Below the pieces are notes generated by a model. It did no database searches, was not told the DNA's origin, and saw nothing but the letters and a program-made list of their open reading frames with translations. Shown in pieces: positions 1,803 through 44,648 of a DNA stretch of 58,687 bases. The translations under genes were made by a program, and so were the position numbers. Source of the DNA: Planctomycetaceae bacterium (GTDB lineage Bacteria; Planctomycetota; Planctomycetia; Planctomycetales; Planctomycetaceae); assembly GCA_024742875.1 (NCBI GenBank), contig JANSXP010000048.1:1-58687 (forward strand), read 5' to 3'. Each line of letters starts with the position of its first letter. Position 1 is the first letter of the stretch.

Positions 1803-4800
1803 TTACAACTCAAAGTACTCCTCGTCGTCGTCGCCCGGCAAAGACGCGTTAGTTGCATCCTCGGTCGAGTCAGCGACAGCCGTGCCAGCTGCCGGCGGCG
1901 ACTGTTCGGCGGCCGCCTTTGCTTCTTCCACCAGCACAAAGCCTTCGGCTGAGCTGATCACTTCAGTGTCATCAACTTCCACGGAGCCTGCCTGTACGGC
2001 CTCTGCAGCTGGCTCGGCGGCCACTGGCGGGACCGACTGCGGGGCCGGGCTGCCGGCATCCGGTGCCACAGGCGCCACGGCGTCTTTGCCTTCCATCACA
2101 GCGGTTGTCTGCATGACTTTGCGCTTGATGGAGGAGATCTTAATGAACAGTTCAATAGCCGATCCGGCCGCGGCCAGCATCGGCAGCCAGACCATAAAGC
2201 CAAACGGAATCACCTTCAGGAAGGCGGCCAGCACGACAACCACTGACGTCACGACGAGCCCGATCAGAATGCTGGTTCGCGTCGTGATGCCGCCCTGCTC
2301 CTGCCGTTTGGCATGACTGGCGAGCGCATTTTCGACAGACTTTGTCGACAGCTCTCGAAACGAGTTCATGTCGTCGCGCAGAGCATTCAGATCAATTTTT
2401 GCTCGCGGCGGCAGATCGGCAGCGGGTGCCGCGGGAGCAGCCGCTGACAGGCCCTCGGCCGGCTGTGAGTCATATTCGCCCGCCATGTAAGACTCGATGA
2501 ACGACGCCTGCCCAGGCTTTTTCGCAGGTTTTTCCGGCTCCGGCTCCGGCTTGGCGGATGTCTCTGACTTCAGTTCGTCCGGCAGGGCGCCGCCGGCATG
2601 GGCGCGATTGCGGGCCAGCAGCTGCTCCATATAGCTGGCCACAAAATCATCACCATCTTCCTCCTGTTCGGACTGTTCTGCTGCGGGCTCTTCGGCCTGC
2701 GGCTCAGGAGACAGCAGCACACTTTGATCGAAGTTCATCGAAACCTCGGCCGCTGATTCCTGGCTGTATTCGTCCACAGCCGGAAGGTCTGATTCGATGG
2801 CCGTGGCCACCGGCTCTTCGGCGACTGCAGAATCGACCGCAGTACGTGACTCGGTCAGACCGAACAGCTCAGCAATCTCCGAACGCACGGCAGGCGCTGC
2901 TTCCGGCTCTGGTTCCGGTTCCGGTTCGGCAGCTGGCGCGGCAAACCGGGACATGATTTCTTCTGCCGACGCCGCAGGTGCTGCAGGTTCTTCGGCCTGC
3001 GTTTCTGCAGCCGGGGCGGCCTCCCTGGCCAGATGAATCTCGGCACGTGCCAGTTCGAGCTGCTGACGCGCATCGAGCATCTGACGACGCTGTTCCTCCA
3101 GCTCCGCTTCGCCCTGCTCAATCATCCGCTGACGTTCCCGAATAGAAGCCTCCCGCTCGTCCAGCACGTTGATGCGGTCATCCAGTTCCCGATGCTGTCG
3201 CTGGATTTCTTCCGGATCACCGGACGGACCGGCGTTCAGCCTGGCCGTCAGCTCGTCAATCATTCGCTGCCGATCGTCCAGCTGTGTCTTTAGTTCTGAA
3301 ACAACCGGCAGCTGCGTCTGGTCGGAATCCGTCCCCGCCTCTTCCAGCTGCTGCCGCAATTCCAGAATTGTCTTCTCATACTCAGCCACCTGATCGGCAA
3401 AGCCATCACCCGCTTCTCCGCCGGCCGAAACCGACGCAAGTTCTTCCCGCAGTGACTGCACTTCCTGCAGCAAAGCTTCTTCATCCGCAGCCGCAGACGG
3501 AACAGACTCCGCCTGCTGCTGTTCCACGCGTTCGGCCAGCTTCACCAGCTGTTCACGCAGCAAATCGTTCTGACTTTCCGCTTCTCCCAGAGCCGCTCTG
3601 GCTTCTTCCAGATCGGCCGTCTGCGCGGCGATTTCCTGCTGTGCCGCCTGCAGCTGTTCGCTGTCGCCCTCCCCCGGAGTCGGGTCACCCACTGGCGACG
3701 CAGAGCGAGAAGCCAGCTCGTCGCGAGCTGATTCAAAAGCAGCCTTGAGCTCATTGAGTGCGAGCGTCAGTTCATCACGCTCGCTGGCGAGCCGCTCTTT
3801 TTCCTCTGTCAGTTGTTCATGCTGATCCGTCAGGGCAGCCACACTGGCCTGGGCTTCCTGCAGCGCCTGCGCGGAAGCGTCCGCGTCGGCCTGGGCAGCG
3901 GCTGAGTGATCTTCCGCCGCCTGCTGATGCTCGGCCGCTGCCGCATCACGCTGTTCCAGTTCCAGCGTCCGTTCCTGCAGCTGCCGTTCCCGCGCGGCAA
4001 TATCCTCCAGCAGCAAACGGTGTTCGTCGTCCGCGACCTGCTGTTGCTGCTGCTGTGCGTCGGCGACAGCCTGCTCCGCGTCAGCCAGCTGCTGTCGCTC
4101 TGCGGCCAGCTGCTGCTGCAGATCCAGCAGTGACGCACGATCAACCGACAGTTCTTCTGCCAGCGTGTCCACTTCAGCGGCGCGGTGCAGCAGTTGCTCT
4201 TGCTGGTGCCGCAGATCAGTTTGTGCAGTCGCCTGCTCACCGGCAGCCACGGCGGCCCGTTCAGCCTCACGGACCTGCTCCTGCAGTGCGGCAATCTGCT
4301 GGTCCCGATCATCCAGTGCGGCCGTCGCACTGGCGAACGCGTCCTGGCTGTGTTCTATTTTTGACAGCGCCAACTGCAGTTCCTGCTGCAGACGACCGTG
4401 TTCTTCGTTCCGCTCATCGGCCGCCTGCTGCTGACTGGCGGCGTACTGCTGCTCACGCAGCGCGACCGCCGACTCCCGCTGCTGCAGCTCGGCCATCTGC
4501 TGCTTCAGCCGTGTGTCTTCCTCGCCCAGCGCACGGCGATTTTCCTCAAGGACGGCCGCATCCTGCGCCGCTTCGTCAAGCTGTGCCAGTTCGCTGCTGA
4601 TCTGCTCCGTCTGCTGCTGCAGCTGCTCGGCCGTGCGATCAAGTTCAGCGGCTCGAGCCTGCAGTTCATCCTCCGTTCGCTCCAGCTGCAGGCGATGCTG
4701 CTCGAGTTCGGCCCGCTGCTGTTCCAGTTCGACCTGAACCTGTCGCGTTTGTTCGCGGTCGGACTCCCGAGACTCGGCCATCTGCCGCGCGTCGTCTTCC

Positions 4801-5180
4801 AGAGACGTTTTTGACGAAGCAAACGACTGTTCCCGTTCCTCAAGCGCGGCCGCTCGGGCTTCCAGCTGCGTGTGCTGATGATGCAGCTCTTCCTGAAAAC
4901 CAGCCAGTTCCTGCTCTCGGACACGGGCCCGATCGAAGGCCGCCTGCGCATCGTCCCGCTGCTGCGCGATTTCCGCCAGCGACTGATTCAGCTGTTCCAG
5001 CTCCAGATTCACCCGCGCCCGATCGGCGGCCAGCTCGTTTCGCTCTTTCTGCACGGACTGTGACCGCTGCTCATCATGCGACAGCAGATCGGCGTGCTGT
5101 TGCTGCAGGTGATCCCGTTCGTCTTCCAGCTCCCGACGACGTGACTCCACCTCGTCTTCGCGCAGCTGCAGTGCGGCGGC
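1803..5180 (-). CDS. Coiled-coil and membrane portion of an FHA protein, cut off by an internal TAG
   Basis: This is the downstream part of one long frame that also covers 5184-5927. The two parts are separated only by the TAG at 5181-5183. It is about 1,125 codons. Roughly the first 700 residues are an almost unbroken Gln/Glu/Ala/Leu-rich coiled coil. An acidic Ala/Pro/Glu linker follows, including an EP dipeptide run, and then two adjacent hydrophobic segments about 112-158 residues from the end (RTSILIGLVV... and ...FMVWLPMLAAAG). An acidic tail ends in DDDEEYFEL. The first internal ATG in this part is at 5150, but the heptad pattern runs straight across the stop, so 5150 is unlikely to be a natural start. 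No ribosome binding site was seen there. It may be non-functional, read through, or a sequencing error. Confidence 0.6.
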   Translation of the reverse strand, partial: AAALQLREDEVESRRRELEDERDHLQQQHADLLSHDEQRSQSVQKERNELAADRARVNLELEQLNQSLAEIAQQRDDAQAAFDRARVREQELAGFQEELHHQHTQLEARAAALEEREQSFASSKTSLEDDARQMAESRESDREQTRQVQVELEQQRAELEQHRLQLERTEDELQARAAELDRTAEQLQQQTEQISSELAQLDEAAQDAAVLEENRRALGEEDTRLKQQMAELQQRESAVALREQQYAASQQQAADERNEEHGRLQQELQLALSKIEHSQDAFASATAALDDRDQQIAALQEQVREAERAAVAAGEQATAQTDLRHQQEQLLHRAAEVDTLAEELSVDRASLLDLQQQLAAERQQLADAEQAVADAQQQQQQVADDEHRLLLEDIAARERQLQERTLELEQRDAAAAEHQQAAEDHSAAAQADADASAQALQEAQASVAALTDQHEQLTEEKERLASERDELTLALNELKAAFESARDELASRSASPVGDPTPGEGDSEQLQAAQQEIAAQTADLEEARAALGEAESQNDLLREQLVKLAERVEQQQAESVPSAAADEEALLQEVQSLREELASVSAGGEAGDGFADQVAEYEKTILELRQQLEEAGTDSDQTQLPVVSELKTQLDDRQRMIDELTARLNAGPSGDPEEIQRQHRELDDRINVLDEREASIRERQRMIEQGEAELEEQRRQMLDARQQLELARAEIHLAREAAPAAETQAEEPAAPAASAEEIMSRFAAPAAEPEPEPEPEAAPAVRSEIAELFGLTESRTAVDSAVAEEPVATAIESDLPAVDEYSQESAAEVSMNFDQSVLLSPEPQAEEPAAEQSEQEEDGDDFVASYMEQLLARNRAHAGGALPDELKSETSAKPEPEPEKPAKKPGQASFIESYMAGEYDSQPAEGLSAAAPAAPAADLPPRAKIDLNALRDDMNSFRELSTKSVENALASHAKRQEQGGITTRTSILIGLVVTSVVVVLAAFLKVIPFGFMVWLPMLAAAGSAIELFIKISSIKRKVMQTTAVMEGKDAVAPVAPDAGSPAPQSVPPVAAEPAAEAVQAGSVEVDDTEVISSAEGFVLVEEAKAAAEQSPPAAGTAVADSTEDATNASLPGDDDEEYFEL

Positions 5181-26735: not shown

Positions 26736-27250
26736 CCGGGGGCCCCGGCCGGGGCGGTGGCGTGGCACGCTGCTGCGCAGCTGGAGTCGACTCTTTGTGG
26801 TACGCCTCTGCGCCGAGTCGCTCCGCGTTGCTGCGCTGTCGACAAACAAGGTCGGATCCGCGCGTGATTCGAAATGTGAAAGCGGCCCGGAGCGACGGAA
26901 GCTGCTGCGCAGCTGGAGCCACTCATTGTGGTGCGACTCTGCGCCGAGTCGCTCCGCATTGCTCCGCTGTCGACAAACCGGGTCCGATCCGCGCGTGATT
27001 CGGAATCTGAAGAGAGACGGGGAACGCTGCTGTGCAGCTGGGGACCACTCTTGGTGGTAAGTCTCTGCGGCGAGTCGCTCCGCTATCGACAAACCGGGTC
27101 GGATCCGCGCGTGATTCGGAATCTGAAGGGAGGCGACGGACACTTCAGCGAAGCTGGGGGCCACTCTTTGTGGTACGCCTCTGCGCCGAGTCGCCCCGCG
27201 TTGCTGCGCTATCGACAAACAGGTCGGATCCGCGCTTGATTCGGAATAAG
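26736..27250 (+). repeat. Tandem array of about four diverged GC-rich repeat units
   Basis: After a GC-rich head at 26736-26769 (CCGGGGGCCCCGGC, then GGGCGGTGGCGTGG), four units follow at about 26770-26901, 26902-27026, 27027-27142 and 27143-27250. They shorten from 132 to 108 bp. Each carries CAGCTGG or AGCTGG, TTGTGGTA-like sequence, CTCTGCGCCGAGTCGCTCCG, ATCGACAAAC or GTCGACAAAC, GGTCGGATCCGCGC and TGATTCGGAAT. The head and the CTCTGCGCCGAG and GACAAAC segments recur at 40574-40698. Open frames across this region on either strand are by-products of the repeat. Confidence 0.8.
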
Positions 27251-37714: not shown

Positions 37715-38218
37715 CGGTCTGTTCTCTTCTGGTTGCGGAAGCTCAGTGCGCTTGGCAGTTTCCCACATGAAGGATAGGTTGCATTCCCGCTCTTTGCGGC
37801 AGGTTTCACTATCCGGCAAACGCCAAGAGCGGGCCACGTGCGGATGTGCACGTTATGAGGACTAACGCATGCGTGCGTGCTGCAAAGCGTTCACAACGAC
37901 AAGCAGACGGGGAGAATCCGGGGCACGACACGGGGTATTCCACTTAACTGTTCAACCGCACACTGGTGAATTCGTTCTATCTTCACTGAGTCTGCGGACA
38001 AAACGGAATGGCGCAGTCGTTCTGGCGAGGTAAGACTTGACTCCCCGGAATGGCATTCCCCTAATAATACGGCGTGTATTAGGATTTCGCGTGTCTACTG
38101 TCCGTCAAAAACCGGCTAGATTACGGAGAGCGACTGATTTTCGCGACGTTTGTTGCCGCTTTGCAACATGCGTCCTGCGGTTCCGGAACCACAACCAGAG
38201 AACTCTGGGAGTACGCAC
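37715..38218. other. Divergent intergenic region with a promoter-like dyad cluster
   Basis: About 500 bases between the PilZ-like gene and the VKOR-DsbA gene. The plus-strand half carries a promoter candidate with two inverted repeats (see 38037-38083). Nothing recognisable was seen in 37715-38030. Confidence 0.5.
38037..38083 (+). promoter_or_regulatory. Candidate MerR-type promoter with two inverted repeats
   Basis: TTGACT at 38037-38042 (5 of 6 to the -35 consensus) and AATAAT at 38063-38068 (5 of 6 to the -10) are separated by 20 bp, too long for a normal sigma-70 promoter. The spacer contains the dyad GGAAT-GGC-ATTCC at 38047-38059. A second inverted repeat, CCTAATA at 38060-38066 and TATTAGG at 38077-38083, overlaps the -10. 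Palindromes within a 19-20 bp spacer are the hallmark of MerR-family activated promoters. Confidence 0.4.
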
Positions 38219-40021
38219 GTGACAACCACAACACCAAACAGCCGCATGGAAGCGACACCTGCTTTGCCCTCGAACGCAGTCATCTGGATTATGCGACTGC
38301 TGTGCGTCACGGCCCTGGTCATCAGCGGCTACCTCGCCTACTCCGCTTTTTCCCAGACAGAAGTCATTGGCTGTGGTGGTGGCGATGAAGAATCGGCCTT
38401 CAGTTGCGACCACGTGCTTTCCAGCAAGTACTCCAAAGTTTTTGGGCTTCCCGTCAGCGTGCCGGCCTTCGGCCTGTATGCCACCCTCCTGGGTGTCCTG
38501 TTTTTCTTCCGCAAAGGAGCTCCCGCCAGCCTGATCAACGCTGGCTGGAAATTCCTCACCTTCGGATCCATCTCAGCCGCATTGGCCGCCGTCTGGTTCC
38601 TCGGCCTGCAGAAGTTCGAAATCGGTCACTGGTGCCCCTACTGCATCGCCGCCCATTCCTGCGGGCTGCTCCTGGTGGGAATCGTCCTGGCTCATCGTCG
38701 TGTCAGCTTCGGGCAGACAGGTCTGCTCTCCGGCATGGCCGCTGCCGGCCTGGCCGTCGTGATCGTGGCTCAGGTCTCGTCCGAAGAAGAAGACCAGATC
38801 ACGATGGAGCGTTTCGACGACGTGCCCTCCACGGACATCGCGCTGCTGGATTCCGAAGAGTTCGGTGCTCCTGCAGAATTTGGCGCCCCCACCGAATTTG
38901 GCGCTCCCACGGAGTTTGGCGCTCCGGTCGAATTCGGTGCCCCGATGGAATTTGATGCCCCCATTGGATCTGATGGCGGTTCCACAAACGACCACGTCCC
39001 CCTGCCCGTCGAAGAGATCGCCACAGAACTTCCCGACGAAGTCATCACCCCCGTCGCAGAGGACGATGGTGCTGTTTCGCCAGTGGGCGATGTGACGTCC
39101 CGTCTCGAAGCGACCGATGTGCCCGCTCTGGAGGTCCCCGTTCCTGTCACAGAGCCAGCCGCCGCACCGGTCACCACTCCCACAGAACCTGCCGTCTCGA
39201 AACAGGATGACGACGCGGACGACAGTCCATCCGCCACCCGTCGCGTTGCTGCCGCCACATGGCTGTTCTTCTCACCCGGCATGCGACAGGCCTCCACCCA
39301 GCTGATGCAACATCTCCTGCTGGAGGACGTTGCCAAAGACACCATCAAAGATGAGACCCCCGCAGACGGGACGACCTCCGACAAACCAGCGGACGCAGAC
39401 ACCAGCACCGACACCGCCGCAGCAGCACCAGCCGTTGTCGCCCCTCCCAAACGCATGGTCAGTGTCTCCGGCAACCGATTCAGCCTCAACACCCGCCACT
39501 GGCCACTGCTGGGCAATCCCGACGCCAAATACATCTTCGTCGAAATGTTCGACTACACGTGTCCCCACTGCCGCACGACCCACAAAGCCATCGACGGGGC
39601 CTTCGAAAAATACGGTAACGACCTGGCCGTGATCGCTCTGCCCGTCCCTCTCGAACGCAGCTGCAACGACGCCGCCAGCGGCGGCGGCCACTACGGCGCC
39701 TGTGAGCTGGCCCGCATTTCTGTGGCCGTCTGGCGTGTCGATCGGGCACAGTTCAAAGAATTTCACGACTGGATGTTCGCCGCCACGCGCAGCAAAGCCC
39801 AGGCCCGCAGCAAAGCCGAACAAATGGTCGGCAAAGACGCTCTGGCCGCAGAACTCAAACAGCCACACGCCAGCAACTACATCGCCAAGCACGTGGAACT
39901 CTACAAACGTGTCGGCCGCGGTGCCGTCCCCAAACTCATGTTCCCCAAAGCCACAATGACCGGCTCTGTGGGCAGTGCCCGCACTCTGTGCAGCACCATC
40001 GAACGCGAACTGGGCAAATAA
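38219..40021 (+). CDS. Fused vitamin K epoxide reductase (VKOR) - DsbA-like thiol oxidoreductase
   Basis: A 600-residue protein that joins both halves of a disulfide-forming pathway. Residues 20-190 are a VKOR membrane domain with the loop Cys pair (Cys52 and Cys63, in FSCDHVLSSKYSKVFG) and the quinone-site CPYC (Cys139 and Cys142). After a hydrophobic anchor comes a long acidic/Pro linker with six EFGAP-type hexapeptides, and then a DsbA-like thioredoxin domain with CPHC at about 448-451 and a likely cis-Pro in GAVPKLMF. VKOR reoxidises the thioredoxin partner and passes electrons to quinone, so the fusion would form disulfides outside the membrane by itself. I start at the GTG 38219, seven nt after GGGAG. 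The frame is open from 38150 and an ATG lies at 38246. Confidence 0.88.
   Translation: MTTTTPNSRMEATPALPSNAVIWIMRLLCVTALVISGYLAYSAFSQTEVIGCGGGDEESAFSCDHVLSSKYSKVFGLPVSVPAFGLYATLLGVLFFFRKGAPASLINAGWKFLTFGSISAALAAVWFLGLQKFEIGHWCPYCIAAHSCGLLLVGIVLAHRRVSFGQTGLLSGMAAAGLAVVIVAQVSSEEEDQITMERFDDVPSTDIALLDSEEFGAPAEFGAPTEFGAPTEFGAPVEFGAPMEFDAPIGSDGGSTNDHVPLPVEEIATELPDEVITPVAEDDGAVSPVGDVTSRLEATDVPALEVPVPVTEPAAAPVTTPTEPAVSKQDDDADDSPSATRRVAAATWLFFSPGMRQASTQLMQHLLLEDVAKDTIKDETPADGTTSDKPADADTSTDTAAAAPAVVAPPKRMVSVSGNRFSLNTRHWPLLGNPDAKYIFVEMFDYTCPHCRTTHKAIDGAFEKYGNDLAVIALPVPLERSCNDAASGGGHYGACELARISVAVWRVDRAQFKEFHDWMFAATRSKAQARSKAEQMVGKDALAAELKQPHASNYIAKHVELYKRVGRGAVPKLMFPKATMTGSVGSARTLCSTIERELGK
38858..38965 (+). 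repeat. Six 18-bp units encoding EFGAPx hexapeptides
   Basis: Six consecutive in-frame units encode EFGAPA, EFGAPT, EFGAPT, EFGAPV, EFGAPM and EFDAPI inside the linker of the VKOR-DsbA fusion. Synonymous differences between units show the array is not newly duplicated. Confidence 0.9.
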
Positions 40022-40038
40022 CGCCCGACATTCGGGCG
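40022..40038 (+). terminator. GC-rich hairpin directly after the VKOR-DsbA stop codon
   Basis: CGCCCGA at 40022-40028 and TCGGGCG at 40032-40038 form a perfect 7-bp stem with a 3-nt loop, starting one base after the TAA. There is no T-run. The 3' strand can alternatively pair over 11 bp (40028-40038) with CGCCCGAATGT at 40109-40119, upstream of the thioesterase gene. Confidence 0.45.
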
Positions 40039-40156
40039 AATTACGCTTCGCTGCACCGGAAATCAGTTGGACGGCCGCGCGACCCGCGGTTCACTGCTGT
40101 AACATTCCCGCCCGAATGTCTCCCCTCCGCGCACCTTTTTCCCGCAGCCGCCCACC

Positions 40157-40573
40157 ATGCCATCCAGCTTTGAATCGTCACGTCGCGTCGAGTTCTGCGA
40201 AACCGACATGGCCGGCATCGTCCACTTCTCCAACTACTACCGCTGGATGGAACAAATCGAGCACGAGTTCTTCCGCTCCCTCCAGCTGAAAATTGTCAAC
40301 AACAACACCGAAGGCCTGATCGTCGGCTGGCCCCGCGTGTCCGCCACCTGCCGCTTCCTCGCCCCCGCCCGCTACGAAGACATCATCAACGCCCGACTCA
40401 CCGTCCAGCGCATCGGCGTCAAATCACTCACCTTCGACGTCGAATTCAGCCGCGACGGCCAACCCGTCGCCAAAGGCACCATGAAAACCGTCTGCTGCAT
40501 CGTCACCGAAGACCATAAACTCACCTCCATCGAAATCCCCGCCGAATACACGTCCCAGCTCTCCGAAGCCTAA
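40157..40573 (+). CDS. Acyl-CoA thioesterase, 4HBT hotdog family (YbgC-like)
   Basis: A 138-residue single hotdog-fold protein. It has the family signature ETDMAGIVHFSNYYRWMEQ at about residues 15-33, in which the Asp is the catalytic residue of 4-hydroxybenzoyl-CoA thioesterase-type enzymes and HFSNY lies on the central helix. The later strands (VSATCRFLAPARYEDIIN, LTFDVEFSRDGQPVAKG) also match. It probably hydrolyses an acyl-CoA, but substrate is not evident. A repeat element begins one base after its TAA (40571-40573). It follows the VKOR-DsbA gene by 135 nt and is not obviously linked in function. Confidence 0.88.
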   Translation: MPSSFESSRRVEFCETDMAGIVHFSNYYRWMEQIEHEFFRSLQLKIVNNNTEGLIVGWPRVSATCRFLAPARYEDIINARLTVQRIGVKSLTFDVEFSRDGQPVAKGTMKTVCCIVTEDHKLTSIEIPAEYTSQLSEA

Positions 40574-41217
40574 CGCCGGGGGCCCCGGCGAGGGCGGTGG
40601 CGTGGGACAGACGACTTTGTAGGCGAAGTCTCTGCGCCGAGGCGCTTCGCGTTGCTGCGCGATGACAAACAACGTCGGGGCCGCGCCTGACTGGTTCGAT
40701 GAGGATGTTTGGGGGCGAGCGTTTGCAGGCCGGGAGACACGCAGCGCACCCCGGCAACCAGGCCCCCGGCAAGTCATCGCGTAGTGACGCTGGTCTGCAT
40801 GGCGAGCATCAGCTCCGAGCCGCGTCGATACGTTCGCGTCTTGCTCCGCTACAATCGCAGCCAACCCAACAGCAGGACAGTGTTGGTGCTGGCAGCATTT
40901 GGGCAGGGACGCAGCGGGACAGACGCAGCCCCGACGTCGTTTGCGTAGCACCGCGAAGCGAGTTAGCGGAGCACCAGAGCGCAGCAACATCTCAGGCAGT
41001 ATCACGGTCATCAGGCAGCGGCAGGGCACCCCGGTTGCCGGGGTTCGTCGCGTTCCCCCCGGCGCGTAAACGCCACCCGCAAATCTCCCCAACGAACCAG
41101 TCAGGCGCGGCCCCGACGTCGTTTGTCGTAGCGTAGCAACGCGAAGCGCCTCGGCGCAGAGACTTCGCCTACAAAGTCGTCCGTCCCACGCCACCGCCCC
41201 CGCCGGGGCTCCCGGCG
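40574..41217. repeat. Long inverted-repeat element between convergent gene ends
   Basis: Terminal arms at 40574-40698 and 41093-41217 are inverted copies of 125 bp that match at about 118 positions with no gap. Both begin CGCCGGG and contain CCCCGGCG, GGGCGGTGGCGTGGGAC, GACTTTGTAGGCGAAG, CTCTGCGCCGAGGCGC and GACAAAC, and end CTGACTGGTTCG. Less conserved inverted similarity continues inward to about 40758 and 41033. The interior carries a third, partial copy at about 40927-40990 in the right-arm orientation (CCCCGACGTCGTTTG and CGCGAAGCG). The right arm covers the last 13 codons and the stop of bioA. No transposase is encoded. No target duplication is visible. Confidence 0.85.
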
Positions 41218-42593
41218 TGGATGGCGTCGATGGTTTGGTCGCACAGTTGGGCGACGAGGCTGGTGGGCATGGCTGGTGCGGGCATGAGGACGACGACATC
41301 GGAGAGCGGGCGGATGATGACGCCGCGTTTGCGGGCTTCGAGGGTGACCTTGTGGCCGAGTCTCAGTTCGGCATCGAAGGGTTGCATGGTGTCTCGGTCT
41401 TTGACCAGTTCGATGCCCACCATGGTGCCTTTCTGGCGAATCTCGCCCACGTGGGGGTGGTCGGCGAGGGGGGCCAGTTTTTCGGTGATCACAGCCGCAT
41501 TGTTCTTGCCGTTTTCCAGCACGTGGTTGTCACGGAACAGTTGCAGGGAGGCCAGGGCGGCAGCGCAGCCCAGTGGGTTGCCCGTGTAGGTGTGGCCGTG
41601 GAAGAACGTGCGTCCTTCGCTGGGTCGTCCCAGAAACGCGTTGTAGATTTCGTCGGTGGTGAGTGTGGCGGCCAGTGGGAGGTAGCCACCGGAGATACCT
41701 TTGGCGACGCACATGACGTCGGGGCGGACATTTTCCTGCTCGCAGGCGAACATGGTGCCCGTGCGGCCGAAACCCACGGCCACTTCATCGGCGATGAGCG
41801 GGATGTTGTAGCGATCACAGCAGGCGCGAACGTGTTTCAGATAGCCGGGAGGGTGCACTAGGATTCCAGCAGCGCCCTGCACGAGAGGTTCGATGACGAA
41901 GCCGGCCGCTGTTTCGTGATTTTCGGCGATGAGCTGTTCGACACGATTGAAGCAGTACTGGAGCCAGGATTCTTTGGTGTAGCCCGGTTCGACGCGGGTG
42001 GCGACCGGTGAGGGAACAGAGACGGTCGAAAACAGCAGATGGCGGTAGGCGCGATGAAACACGTCCATACTGCCCACACTGACGGAGCCGAGGGTGTCTC
42101 CGTGATAGGCGTTGCCCACACAGAGGAAGGTGGTTCGCTGTGGTTCCGGATTCGGCTTTTGCTGGTGGTACTGGTAGACGGCTTTGAGAGCCACCTCCAC
42201 AGCCGTGGCGCCGCTGTCGGAATAGAAGACCTTGTTCAGACCGTCCGGCGTGATGTCAACGAGTTGTTTGGCCAGCTGAATGGAAACATCACTGGACAGT
42301 CCCAGCAGGGTGGTGTGTCCGACGCGGTCGAGCTGATCACGGACGGCCTCGTTGATTTCAGGCACCGCGTGGCCGTGGACATTGCACCACAGCGAGGAGA
42401 TGCCGTCGATGTAGTGATTGCCATCGGAGTCGATCAGTTCGAAACCGCGGCCATGCGTAATGATGGGCGCGTTTTCTTCCCGGTAGGCGGACATCGGGGC
42501 AAAGGGATGCCAGACATGTTCATTGTCCCACTCGCGCAGCTGGGCGGTGGTCAGGGCGGCAGAATGGGTGACCGAAGGGAGGGACGGATTCAT
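41169..42593 (-). CDS. bioA: Adenosylmethionine-8-amino-7-oxononanoate transaminase
   Basis: A 474-residue class-III PLP aminotransferase of biotin synthesis, which transfers an amino group from S-adenosylmethionine to 7-keto-8-aminopelargonate to give 7,8-diaminopelargonate. Characteristic features are [15 protein letters not shown] near the N-terminus, the [10 protein letters not shown] region, [14 protein letters not shown], the Asp in [13 protein letters not shown] and the PLP Lys298 in [22 protein letters not shown] and SSLWCNVHG favour BioA over other class-III enzymes. The C-terminus is odd. After AIHAG the last 13 residues ([13 protein letters not shown]) and the stop are encoded inside the adjacent repeat element, so the native end was replaced or extended. 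No other bio genes lie nearby. Confidence 0.9.
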
Positions 42594-42647
42594 GGCGAAC
42601 AGCTGTCGAGACGCGGAACAAAGGGCGGTCAGTGAGGGGCGATGGAG

Positions 42648-43514
42648 TCAGGCGTCTTTGACGACCGGATTTTCCAGGGTGCCGATTCCGGAGATGGTGA
42701 TCGCAACGTGGTCCCCGTTTTCCAGTGTGAAATTGTCATCGGGGACAATGCCGGTGCCCGTCATCAGGAACGCGCCTGCGGGGAATTCACTTTCTGTGTA
42801 CAGCCACTTTGCCAGATCTTCCAGAGAGCGATGCAGCTGCGAGAGGTCGGTGCGACCTTTGAAGGCTTCGCTGCCATCACGCGAGATGATCAGTTCAATC
42901 TGCACTTCGTCCAGCGTGAGGGGTTCATCGGCCAGCATGATGACCGGGCCCAGTCCAGCGCACTGGCGATACACTTTGGCCTGAGGCAGGTAGAGTGGGT
43001 TTTCGCCTTCGATATCCCGCGCGGACATGTCATTGCCGATCGTGTAGCCAACAATCTTACCGGAGGGATTCAGGACAAGCGTGAATTCCGGTTCGGGAAC
43101 GGACCACTGACTGTCTTTGCGAACACGCACAGGCTGCCCGGGACCAGACACGCGGCTGGCGGTGGCCTTCATGAACAGCTCAGGGCGATCGGCGTCGTAG
43201 ACTTTGTCGTAGTGGGAGGCACCGCTTTCCGATTCTTCCATGCGGGCCACCTGGCTGCGTTTGTAGGTGACTCCGGCTGCCCAGACTTCCTGATCGTCAA
43301 TGGGGGCCAGCAGATCGACCTGATCCAGGGGGATGGGCATGGTGTCGGGACGCAGGAGAAAACGGGCCAGTCCGGCCGGGTCGTCCGAGTGCAGAATGTC
43401 GCTCAGAGAATGGCAGTTGCTGATCTGGGTCAGGTCCAGAGGCTGAATCGAGTCCGCGTGGACTGCGGCGACAACGAGAGTTCCATCAGAGATACGGGCT
43501 TTGGCAAGTTTCAC
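42648..43514 (-). CDS. Fumarylacetoacetate hydrolase (FAH) family protein
   Basis: A 288-residue enzyme of the FAH fold. The metal-binding region reads SVPEPEFTLVLNPSGKIVG, followed by GNDMSARDIEGENPLYLPQAK, the signature found in FAH-type C-C hydrolases, 2-keto-3-deoxy-sugar dehydratases and related enzymes. An early AAGVTYKRSQVARMEES segment is also typical. The YDADRPELFMK and NPLYLPQAK sequences resemble the 2-keto-3-deoxy-D-arabinonate dehydratase-like group, so a sugar-acid pathway is plausible but not certain. It starts at GTG 43514. It lies 54 nt upstream of bioA on the same strand. Confidence 0.82.
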   Translation of the reverse strand: MKLAKARISDGTLVVAAVHADSIQPLDLTQISNCHSLSDILHSDDPAGLARFLLRPDTMPIPLDQVDLLAPIDDQEVWAAGVTYKRSQVARMEESESGASHYDKVYDADRPELFMKATASRVSGPGQPVRVRKDSQWSVPEPEFTLVLNPSGKIVGYTIGNDMSARDIEGENPLYLPQAKVYRQCAGLGPVIMLADEPLTLDEVQIELIISRDGSEAFKGRTDLSQLHRSLEDLAKWLYTESEFPAGAFLMTGTGIVPDDNFTLENGDHVAITISGIGTLENPVVKDA

Positions 43515-43586
43515 GAATCAGCTTTCGAGGGAGGATTCCGGTGGTCAGCGAAGCTTTGGGCCGAAAGACGGCAGGCCCCACATCGG

Positions 43587-44648
43587 TCAGGGCCGCGACC
43601 TCAGAGCTGTCAGCGTGCGTTCGAAGTCGTCCGGTAATGGTGCCTCGAACGTCATCGGTTTTCCACTGACGGGGTGCGAAATTGTCAGGCGGAAGGCATG
43701 TAGCGCCTGTCGGGCAATCAGGGTGTCGCCCGTCAGCGGGGCTCCCTGCAGGTGGCCCGTCGTGAAGCGGTCTTCACCGATGTACGCTTTGTCCGCGACA
43801 ATGGGCGTACCGATGTGCTGCATGTGCACGCGGAGCTGATGCGTGCGGCCGGTCTTGGGGTGCAGATTGACAAAGGCGAACCGCCCGAACTTTTCCGCCG
43901 TTTCATAGAACGTGACGGCTTCACGAGATCGCCCGCCCGGCGCACAGACCATCATCTTTTCCCGCACGCGGTTATGCACGCACACGTGCGTCGTAATGAA
44001 ATCGGCATCACGTTCCGGCACCCCGCGGACGATCGCCCGATACTCTTTGCTGACCGTTCTTTCTTCAAACTGTTTGCTGACCCGATTGTGAATCTGATTG
44101 TCTTTGGCAATCAGGATCACGCCGGTCGTGTCACGATCAAGCCGGTGGACAATGCCGGGGCGGTGCTGACCTCCCACATCGCTGAGTTGATCGAAGTGAA
44201 ACTGCAGCGCGGCGGTCAGCGTGCCCGAATAAGATCCGCGTCCGGGGTGCACGACCATATTGGCCGGCTTGTTCACCACCACAATGGCGTCGTCCTGGTA
44301 GAGGATGTCCAGCGGAATTTCTTCCGGCTGAATGTGGACATCGTCGGCGGCTGTGAGCTTCAGGTGAATGCGATCATTCACACGCAGGCGGCGCGATGGT
44401 TTGGCGGGAAGACCATTGAGCGAGACGTCCCCACCATCGATCGCCTTTTTCAGGACAGATCGACTGTAGTTGGGGAACAGGCGACTGAGGTAATGATCCA
44501 GTCGCCAGCCATGGGCCCGCGATTCGACCGTGAGATCGACCGGCTGAGCCAGATCAATGTCTGAATTCAGGGGGAGTTCGTCACCGCCAGCAGACGAGTC
44601 AGCGTCGGCAGACGGGTCAGTGTCCCCCTGATGCTCTTCAGACGTCAC
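43587..44648 (-). CDS. RluA-family 23S rRNA pseudouridine synthase (RluD-like)
   Basis: A 353-residue enzyme with an N-terminal S4 RNA-binding domain (RLDHYLSRLFPNYSRSVLKKAI at about 49-70) and the pseudouridine synthase domain. The catalytic Asp171 is in GIVHRLDRDTTG, and KPANMVVHPGRG and TGRTHQLRVHMQHIGTPIVAD complete the RluA signature. The RluD subfamily isomerises uridines in helix 69 of 23S rRNA. The family is confident but the exact target is not. Its start is a GTG at 44648 that overlaps the TGA of the upstream TPR-type gene by four bases (GTGA), so the two are translationally coupled. The N-terminal 35 residues are acidic and not part of the usual fold. Confidence 0.88.
   Translation of the reverse strand: MTSEEHQGDTDPSADADSSAGGDELPLNSDIDLAQPVDLTVESRAHGWRLDHYLSRLFPNYSRSVLKKAIDGGDVSLNGLPAKPSRRLRVNDRIHLKLTAADDVHIQPEEIPLDILYQDDAIVVVNKPANMVVHPGRGSYSGTLTAALQFHFDQLSDVGGQHRPGIVHRLDRDTTGVILIAKDNQIHNRVSKQFEERTVSKEYRAIVRGVPERDADFITTHVCVHNRVREKMMVCAPGGRSREAVTFYETAEKFGRFAFVNLHPKTGRTHQLRVHMQHIGTPIVADKAYIGEDRFTTGHLQGAPLTGDTLIARQALHAFRLTISHPVSGKPMTFEAPLPDDFERTLTALRSRP

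Follow-up and report, generated by a model that had tools for sequence, protein, structure and literature searches.

The inverted repeat lying between the convergent genes of a thioesterase and a class-III aminotransferase in a planctomycete genome is one site of a family of non-coding interspersed repeats, and not one two-armed element. Each unit opens with a short GC-rich hairpin. This hairpin tip often lies at the stop codon of the neighbouring gene, whatever the gene, and the DNA on the tip side carries a strand asymmetry that fades over kilobases. In the best reading, the tips would be places from which DNA synthesis repeatedly starts and runs outward into the flanking gene.

Anatomy of the locus

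The locus belongs to a window of 58,687 nucleotides, the whole stretch of DNA that was analysed. The inverted repeat described across the convergent gap in the initial annotation is indeed present: a repeat search of the window finds arms of 143 nt (40573-40715 and 41076-41218) that are 92% complementary, with a weaker inverted extension of 44 nt behind them (40719-40762 and 41030-41073, 77%). BLAST against the own genome merges arms and extension into about 190 nt at 87% (E 8e-61). The left hairpin begins at 40574, the base right after the thioesterase TAA (40571-40573), as had been stated. On the other side, the frame of the aminotransferase gene, for which the earlier name bioA is retained (41169-42593, minus strand), crosses the right arm and finds its TAG (41169-41171) there. 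Thus, the placement of the bioA end and stop within the arm stands, but the unit-encoded tail counts 15 codons, not 13. Pfam assigns the two neighbours to the 4HBT thioesterases and the class-III aminotransferases. In agreement with the initial annotation, no transposase is found within the element. The features are as follows.

40571-40573, plus strand: TAA that ends the thioesterase gene 40157-40573 (4HBT family), immediately before the left hairpin.
40573-40688, plus strand: left repeat unit, sense as the gene direction, conserved motif from 40592.
40574-40590, plus strand: hairpin tip of the left unit, CGCCGGG-GGC-CCCGGCG, read from the sequence; the hairpin type recurs at other units.
40689-40762, plus strand: further, weaker inverted similarity behind the unit, left half.
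40920-40971, minus strand: incomplete, degenerate copy within the centre, with 79% and 92% identity to two parts of the right unit.
41030-41102, minus strand: further inverted similarity, right half.
41103-41218, minus strand: right repeat unit, tip directed into bioA, 94% identical to the left unit.
41201-41217, minus strand: hairpin tip of the right unit, read from the sequence, translated here as part of bioA.
41169-41217, minus strand: unit-encoded C-terminal tail of bioA (15 codons) and TAG stop.
38150-40573, plus strand: left flank, in which the tip-side asymmetry shows as a wobble GC skew of -0.31, -0.50, -0.69 (1-kb bins from 38001).
41169-44648, minus strand: right flank with the mirrored asymmetry (plus-strand wobble GC skew +0.52, +0.29, +0.15, +0.11 in 1-kb bins from 41001).
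26736-27237, plus strand: the other array of the window, made up of a full unit and three units matching model positions 36-112 only.

The centre of the locus, 360 nt, looks unrelated to 13 other centres when compared by eye; of the matches listed for the entire locus, a single one, of 57 bases, falls in it. Within the left flank, 38150-40021 encodes a VKOR and thioredoxin-domain protein whose domains are separated by a short peptide in tandem copies, EFGAP(T/V/M).

A dispersed family of repeat units

Used as a query against its own genome, the whole locus gives 163 matches, and most of the places are matched once per arm. Each arm, the nucleotide query that had been proposed in the initial annotation, is therefore one copy of a dispersed family. 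An iterated profile run on 21 stretches found 108 copies; a profile built from 58 aligned units gave 186 matches in 46 stretches (625,625 bases, 0.63 of 8.18 Mb), 133 of which start at one of model positions 1-4. With a strict motif pattern, the genome gives 60 listed matches, including three that are second lengths at a place already matched, against none when the pattern is reversed. In the model scans of genomes the best 150 (or 30) candidates per genome were scored, so the numbers of copies are minimum values.

Read in the same sense as the adjacent gene, a unit of this species consists of the hairpin, GGGCGGTGGCGTGG, about 20 variable bases, GCGCCGAG and about 45 further bases. The full unit measures about 112 nt, and units often follow head to tail at about that spacing; genus-wide, the core is about 66 nt. 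The hairpin is commonly GCCGGG-loop-CCCGGC, with variants that have GCG stems or one extra pair.

The 113 full units scoring over 40 bits, on which all cluster counts rest, form 56 clusters, 26 of them single units and 15 of mixed direction; in 15 of these 15, the hairpins point outward. Identity is 0.81 between opposed units of one cluster, 0.825 between tandem units and 0.65 between clusters. Since opposed units are as alike as tandem ones, unit copies seem to arise locally and in both orientations. The two units of the window, 94% identical to each other, are at most 80% identical to any other unit compared.

These counts do not fit the view, taken in the initial annotation, of the 644-bp stretch as one element ending in inverted repeats; its arms are separate units. 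A MITE bounded by terminal inverted repeats of 125 bp and mobilised by a helper transposase would account for inverted arms without a gene inside. Nevertheless, units often stand alone or in arrays on one side only, the sequences enclosed by opposed arrays look unrelated in 14 loci and no duplication is seen (both by eye), and the search for a helper with matching ends, called for at the outset, yielded none with two enzyme queries (Y1 and IS91-type). The two-armed MITE was rejected on these grounds, and we regard it as very improbable.

Many arrays stand at contig ends of this genome (C6, C40, C41, C104, C105, C136, C141, C166), from which it follows that the arrays probably break the assembly and that copy number is underestimated. 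Such positions might also raise the suspicion of an assembly or annotation artefact. However, arrays occur inside contigs as well, and copies with the same anatomy are present in a relative assembled as a single 8.9-Mb contig, so that an artefact is scarcely credible.

Units at stop codons

Genes were called with a home-made hexamer model, not with a published gene finder. There are 84 array-leading units in all, of which 6 near stretch edges were set aside. Among the remaining 78, 40 begin between -5 and +15 nt from a same-strand stop, and in 16 cases the gene ends inside the unit; 3 lie 16-100 nt from a called stop and 19 are far from any. None of the 78 is placed at an opposite-strand stop. 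By comparison, 2.7% of 2,410 random intergenic points count as being at a stop. In the 46 stretches, selected around matches so that these rates are not genome-wide, units are found at 35 of 144 convergent and 12 of 214 co-directional gene ends, and 9 of 72 convergent gaps have a unit on both sides. The idea that the repeat "targets 3' ends" hence holds as a pattern, whatever its cause, in this genome and in the genus. Hairpins in general are not enriched at stops: unit-free genes have one in 12 of 324 cases, against 38 of 1,158 random points. At the second array of the window (26736-27237), the asymmetry is on the tip side (left), and the nearest called same-strand stop is 256 nt off.

The host genes are unrelated (uvrA, mqnC, lptF/G, DUF1501, PSCyt and others). 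Ten of their C-termini were queried in the relatives, and nine compared, an SDR gene with many paralogs being left out and one row being used for XylA. PurH, TrxB, IlvB, XylA and LptF/G stop exactly at the position of the relatives' stop, and the unit comes at most a few bases later. Among the 50 genus-mate orthologs of the nine genes, 49 have no unit; the exception, the DAHP synthase of G003, has a unit-like sequence with a different hairpin. The names TrxB, XylA, DAHP synthase, PC, PepQ-like and AsnRS are those that we presume from the protein ends, and not from a family search. Unit-free relatives exist for each of the ten genes compared; it is thus not the case that relatives share the intergenic sequence, an outcome that would have spoken against novelty.

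In bioA, the unit has gone further. In six genus-mates, the protein ends 8-11 residues after the position that aligns with the I of ...TIDAI, and no unit is visible by eye in the 140 nt behind its stop; the seventh, G006, in which bioA is split over contigs, was left out. The present protein continues from that I with H and unit-encoded residues. To judge from this alignment, bioA has lost 8-11 native residues and now ends on unit-encoded ones, as had been supposed when the repeat was said to have replaced the end of the gene; it is, on the same basis, an overshoot of the unit into the gene. Read-through genes elsewhere (L064 1469-1984, L141 17382-19019, L132 193-3033, L134 5669-7966) gain tails such as GRDAPAGGGV, and one read-through gene has several hairpin-encoded repeats in a row in its tail.

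Two explanations of this placement deserve consideration here. In the first, a machinery would recognise the in-frame stop, or the mRNA 3' end, and junctions such as TA|GCCGGG would be insertion sites. Junctions do fall within a few nt of the stop in several genomes, and native protein ends are kept. Stop usage is also biased: the 40 stops at units are 22 TAG, 15 TAA and 3 TGA, against 118, 85 and 125 in 328 comparison genes, so that TAG is over-used (Fisher p 0.025) and TGA under-used (4e-5). On the other hand, neither a target duplication nor a target motif was seen by eye in 75 array 3' ends, and some copies stand within the ORF of a Y2 (IS91-type) transposase or overshoot into genes. Site-directed insertion thus appears unlikely.

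In the second, the units would be REP-like 3'-UTR hairpins kept for an RNA role, in translation termination, mRNA decay or transcription termination, with the tip standing at the stop as its place of action, and the strand asymmetry described below would be a side effect of something else. Extracts of PMC3733652 place published REPs mostly downstream of genes, near 3' ends, with GTAG ends that often supply the stop, and REPs fewer than 16 nt from the stop can lower translation in E. coli, according to an extract of PMC12306157. The hairpin itself argues in the same direction, its pairing being kept through double changes: in 35 core sequences from seven genomes, 3 of 6 pairs have changed on both sides, in 9 cells (of 500 shuffles, none reaches 9 cells and 17 reach 3 pairs). 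RNAalifold pairs columns 11-13 with 22-24; one pair shows 10 double changes, but all ten have the same GCG-type stem by eye. A second helix, TGGCG/CGCCG, was set aside, as it hardly varies (4 of 5 pairs never) and is uninformative on covariation. Whole units (64) fold hardly better than their shuffles (mean z -0.41, and about -0.4 with or without the hairpin), which is not what an RNA role would lead one to expect. Nor does the unrelatedness of the host genes favour it, nor the lack of an intrinsic terminator (a GC hairpin with a T-run) in 40400-41400. Rfam gave no match at gathering score in the window, and for one array, searched at a limit of E 10, the only match had E 8.1.

A one-sided strand asymmetry

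Near the stop of unit-bearing genes, third codon positions are C-rich and poor in G and T. Their GC skew is -0.64 at 0-30 nt from the stop, -0.72 at 30-120 nt and still -0.29 at 1.5-3 kb, against -0.09 to +0.05, with one far bin at +0.16, in genes having no unit within 1.5 kb of their end. Taken by cluster, the skew of the 92 hairpin sides goes from -0.75 at the tip to -0.08 at a distance of 4-6 kb, and that of the 46 sides without a tip remains between -0.14 and +0.11. On the hairpin side, the skew has the same sign in genes running toward the cluster and in genes running away from it (from -0.52 to -0.02). The skew is negative on 75 of 77 tip sides (standard deviation of random stretches, 0.14). 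There is no dependence on the number of units (Spearman -0.09, p 0.42). In the window, the plus-strand wobble GC skew is also about -0.45 around 3-5 kb (2001-5150), with no unit detected nearby; this is perhaps the trace of a lost or unrecognised tip.

In two-fold codons at most 150 nt from the stop, pyrimidine-ending ones end in C at 0.89 versus 0.62, and purine-ending ones in A at 0.78 versus 0.45. Since both classes are shifted, changes from T to C and from G to A would be favoured on the strand running to the tip. At four-fold sites, C rises (0.74 versus 0.38) and A does not (0.08 versus 0.11), so that transitions alone are insufficient to explain the asymmetry. In all of this, the asymmetry is read from present-day composition, not from observed mutations. 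In the last 160 codons of ten genes, the mean skew is -0.60 in this genome versus -0.06 in the relatives (genes from -0.19 to +0.08).

Two other causes do not fit the footprint. A two-ended break at the palindrome is at odds with the near-zero skew of the side without a tip, and transcription toward the unit would give an effect dependent on gene direction, which the footprint is not. The RNA role, for its part, does not predict a one-sided footprint of kilobases that is independent of gene direction, and 21 E. coli REP clusters, located with a REP consensus, show no such footprint, their skew being small and of opposite sign (+0.1). With the arguments on both sides, an RNA role is less probable than not, if far from negligible. 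A promoter in each unit, firing out through the tip, would do better in this respect: long antisense transcription would expose the non-template strand, and the right strand, the one-sidedness and the independence of gene direction are all predicted. However, no site of the sigma-70 type was found in 40400-41400, ordinary transcribed genes show little third-position GC skew, and strong antisense transcription would be required through purH, ilvB, bioA and others. We consider such a promoter quite improbable.

Distribution within the genus

Core matches (model R3, E 1e-5) were obtained in 7 of 8 genomes of the genus and in none of 162 other genomes of the order, the order-wide search using stricter filters and scoring the best 30 candidates per genome. 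In the relatives, where the stop was taken as the end of the longest ORF nearby, 17 of 23 copies lie at most 8 nt from a stop (one with an ORF of only 10 codons); so do 16 of 20 in a second set, two copies being common to both. Because of this definition a random-point control was run: 20% of 6,000 random points satisfy the 8-nt rule, versus 16 of 20 copies and 4 of 20 far ends of the same copies. When the ORF is at least 100 codons long, the figures become 3.1%, 14 of 20 and 0 of 20. Ten of the relatives' unit-bearing genes have ten different Pfam make-ups.

The footprint is weaker in the relatives. Their own unit-bearing genes have a pooled skew of -0.38 over the last 150 nt, negative in 17 of 19 with one at +0.19; 4 of 23 copies were left out (short or uncertain ORF, and one G003 copy), and several values are within the range of unit-free orthologs. 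Twenty single copies of G004, G001 and G007 show no tip-side excess in all-base composition, and third-position skew is negative in 17 of these 20 genes. A locus encoding a class II tRNA synthetase, which we take to be AsnRS from its end, carries the core in G001, G002 and G007; these copies adjoin the stop, yet the skew is -0.08, -0.03 and 0.00. Conservation of shared old copies versus the sequence that follows is 0.68-0.73 versus 0.59-0.71, 0.83 versus 0.91 and 0.82 versus 0.45, so that a stronger conservation of the copies is not clear.

Variants occur in two relatives. G003 has a second family (L164 4496-4564, L169 3924-4603) that has the tail in common with the first and an unrelated hairpin, CAAGGGCTTCGCCCTTG; several of its copies stand directly after a TAA, by eye. 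It leaves no strand footprint, and the first family of G003 leaves a weak local one (5 clusters). In G004, the core lies in frame, antisense, inside the ORF of a Y2/IS91-type transposase (Pfam Y2_Tnp) at L071 1501-1580 and six identical copies and at L125 and two more, where it is copied along with the IS; in a second IS91-like gene, the core is at or beside the gene start. No close homolog of the G004 transposase with an uninterrupted ORF was found that could serve as an empty site for comparison. In the same genome, genes with similar ends, VNTKGE.GPW..., have the core at the stop (L252, L255, L264), and gene and unit were probably duplicated together.

A possible mechanism

A footprint that starts at the hairpin, is one-sided, does not depend on gene direction and fades over kilobases is best fitted by outward synthesis. 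We infer that the tips may be recurrent start points of unidirectional DNA synthesis running outward, the stop position acting as a ratchet; this reading is tentative, and we give it somewhat less than an even chance. The simplest start would be a rolling-circle (HUH) type of nick next to the hairpin. During synthesis into the flanking gene, the strand with its 5' end at the tip would be repeatedly displaced or re-made, and the opposite strand would be left with a surplus of C and A that fades over about 5 kb. Units multiply as head-to-tail arrays behind the tip and, in convergent pairs, as an opposed copy at the second gene; such local copying would be due to the same activity. The intergenic DNA that separates the tip from the gene would disappear or be overwritten as far as the stop codon, where selection on the coding sequence would bring the process to a halt. 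The position at stop codons is best explained by such an advancing front, halted by selection; overshoot past the stop would give shortened or extended proteins, of which bioA may be an example. That the repeats are many small one-way strand-displacement start points, which advance to stop codons and mutate kilobases of unrelated genes, is possible, though we would sooner expect it to fail as a whole than to hold.

As for an enzyme, no Y1 transposase (Y1_Tnp, PF01797) was found in this genome, which is 98% complete, nor in G007, and 6 of the 8 genus genomes have one. A single query with one IS91-type transposase (the Y2 enzyme of G004) found no relative here.

If outward synthesis is true, ordinary genes bear a directional trail of mutations left by a non-coding repeat, and local strand asymmetry would be usable as a recorder of repeat activity. 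The family would also be a test case for why REP-like repeats sit at gene ends, be it targeting, selection or a front halted by coding constraint. Finally, the effect at synonymous sites, as in purH and ilvB, could mislead predictions of codon usage, horizontal transfer or replication origins that are based on GC skew.

Comparison with known systems

In the open-licence papers of PubMed Central, neither the family nor a footprint of this kind, at REPs or elsewhere, was found. The nearest relatives in kind are the REPs and REPINs. As described in extracts of PMC3733652, these are mostly downstream of genes, and in convergent gaps of two species mostly less than 20 bp from both ORF 3' ends. The present units resemble them by a short GC hairpin, many intergenic copies downstream of genes, opposed pairs in some clusters, their presence in convergent gaps and near stops, and sometimes inside ORFs. 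They differ from them by a unit of 66-112 nt with a long conserved tail, by head-to-tail arrays and by the one-sided asymmetry of kilobases. REPIN- or BIME-type opposed pairs may be compared with the 15 of 56 clusters of mixed direction, all with tips outward; among these full units, 26 clusters are single. GTAG REPs, whose ends often provide the stop codon in the extracts of PMC3733652, go with a RAYT (Y1_Tnp, PF01797), of which this genome has none by that Pfam family, and none of 136 copies with a perfect hairpin has a GTAG tag beside it. The CGTC families are described in the same extracts as being without transposase, with stems of 8-9 bp; 116 of the 136 perfect stems have 6 bp, and no unpaired CGTC is seen by eye at the hairpin edge. 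With the GTAG tag absent, no RAYT found and no REP footprint found in the literature, the family is REP-like in kind and not a member of a described family.

Other systems share part of these features. Hairpin REPs at most 15 nt behind the stop are known in E. coli from prior work as described in an extract of PMC12306157; the likeness is a hairpin close behind the stop, the gap here being mostly about 0 to a few nt, and the genome being planctomycete-like to judge from the Pfam families of the neighbouring genes. Rickettsia palindromic elements also enter or extend ORFs in frame (extracts of PMC3733652), but the present repeats are found mainly at the stop codon and less within genes. In Helitron and IS91 rolling-circle elements, a terminal hairpin goes with one-ended outward synthesis and tandem copies. 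The present family would share these features, but with no such enzyme found in its genome by the one query made. The E. coli work on REPs near stops reportedly came from Deutscher's group. For the footprint, the nearest analogue is found in mitochondria, where extracts of PMC3269015 tie third-position gradients from A to G and from C to T to single-stranded DNA and to the distance from a replication origin; here, the gradients would run from many local start points on a chromosome, each on a scale of about 5 kb.
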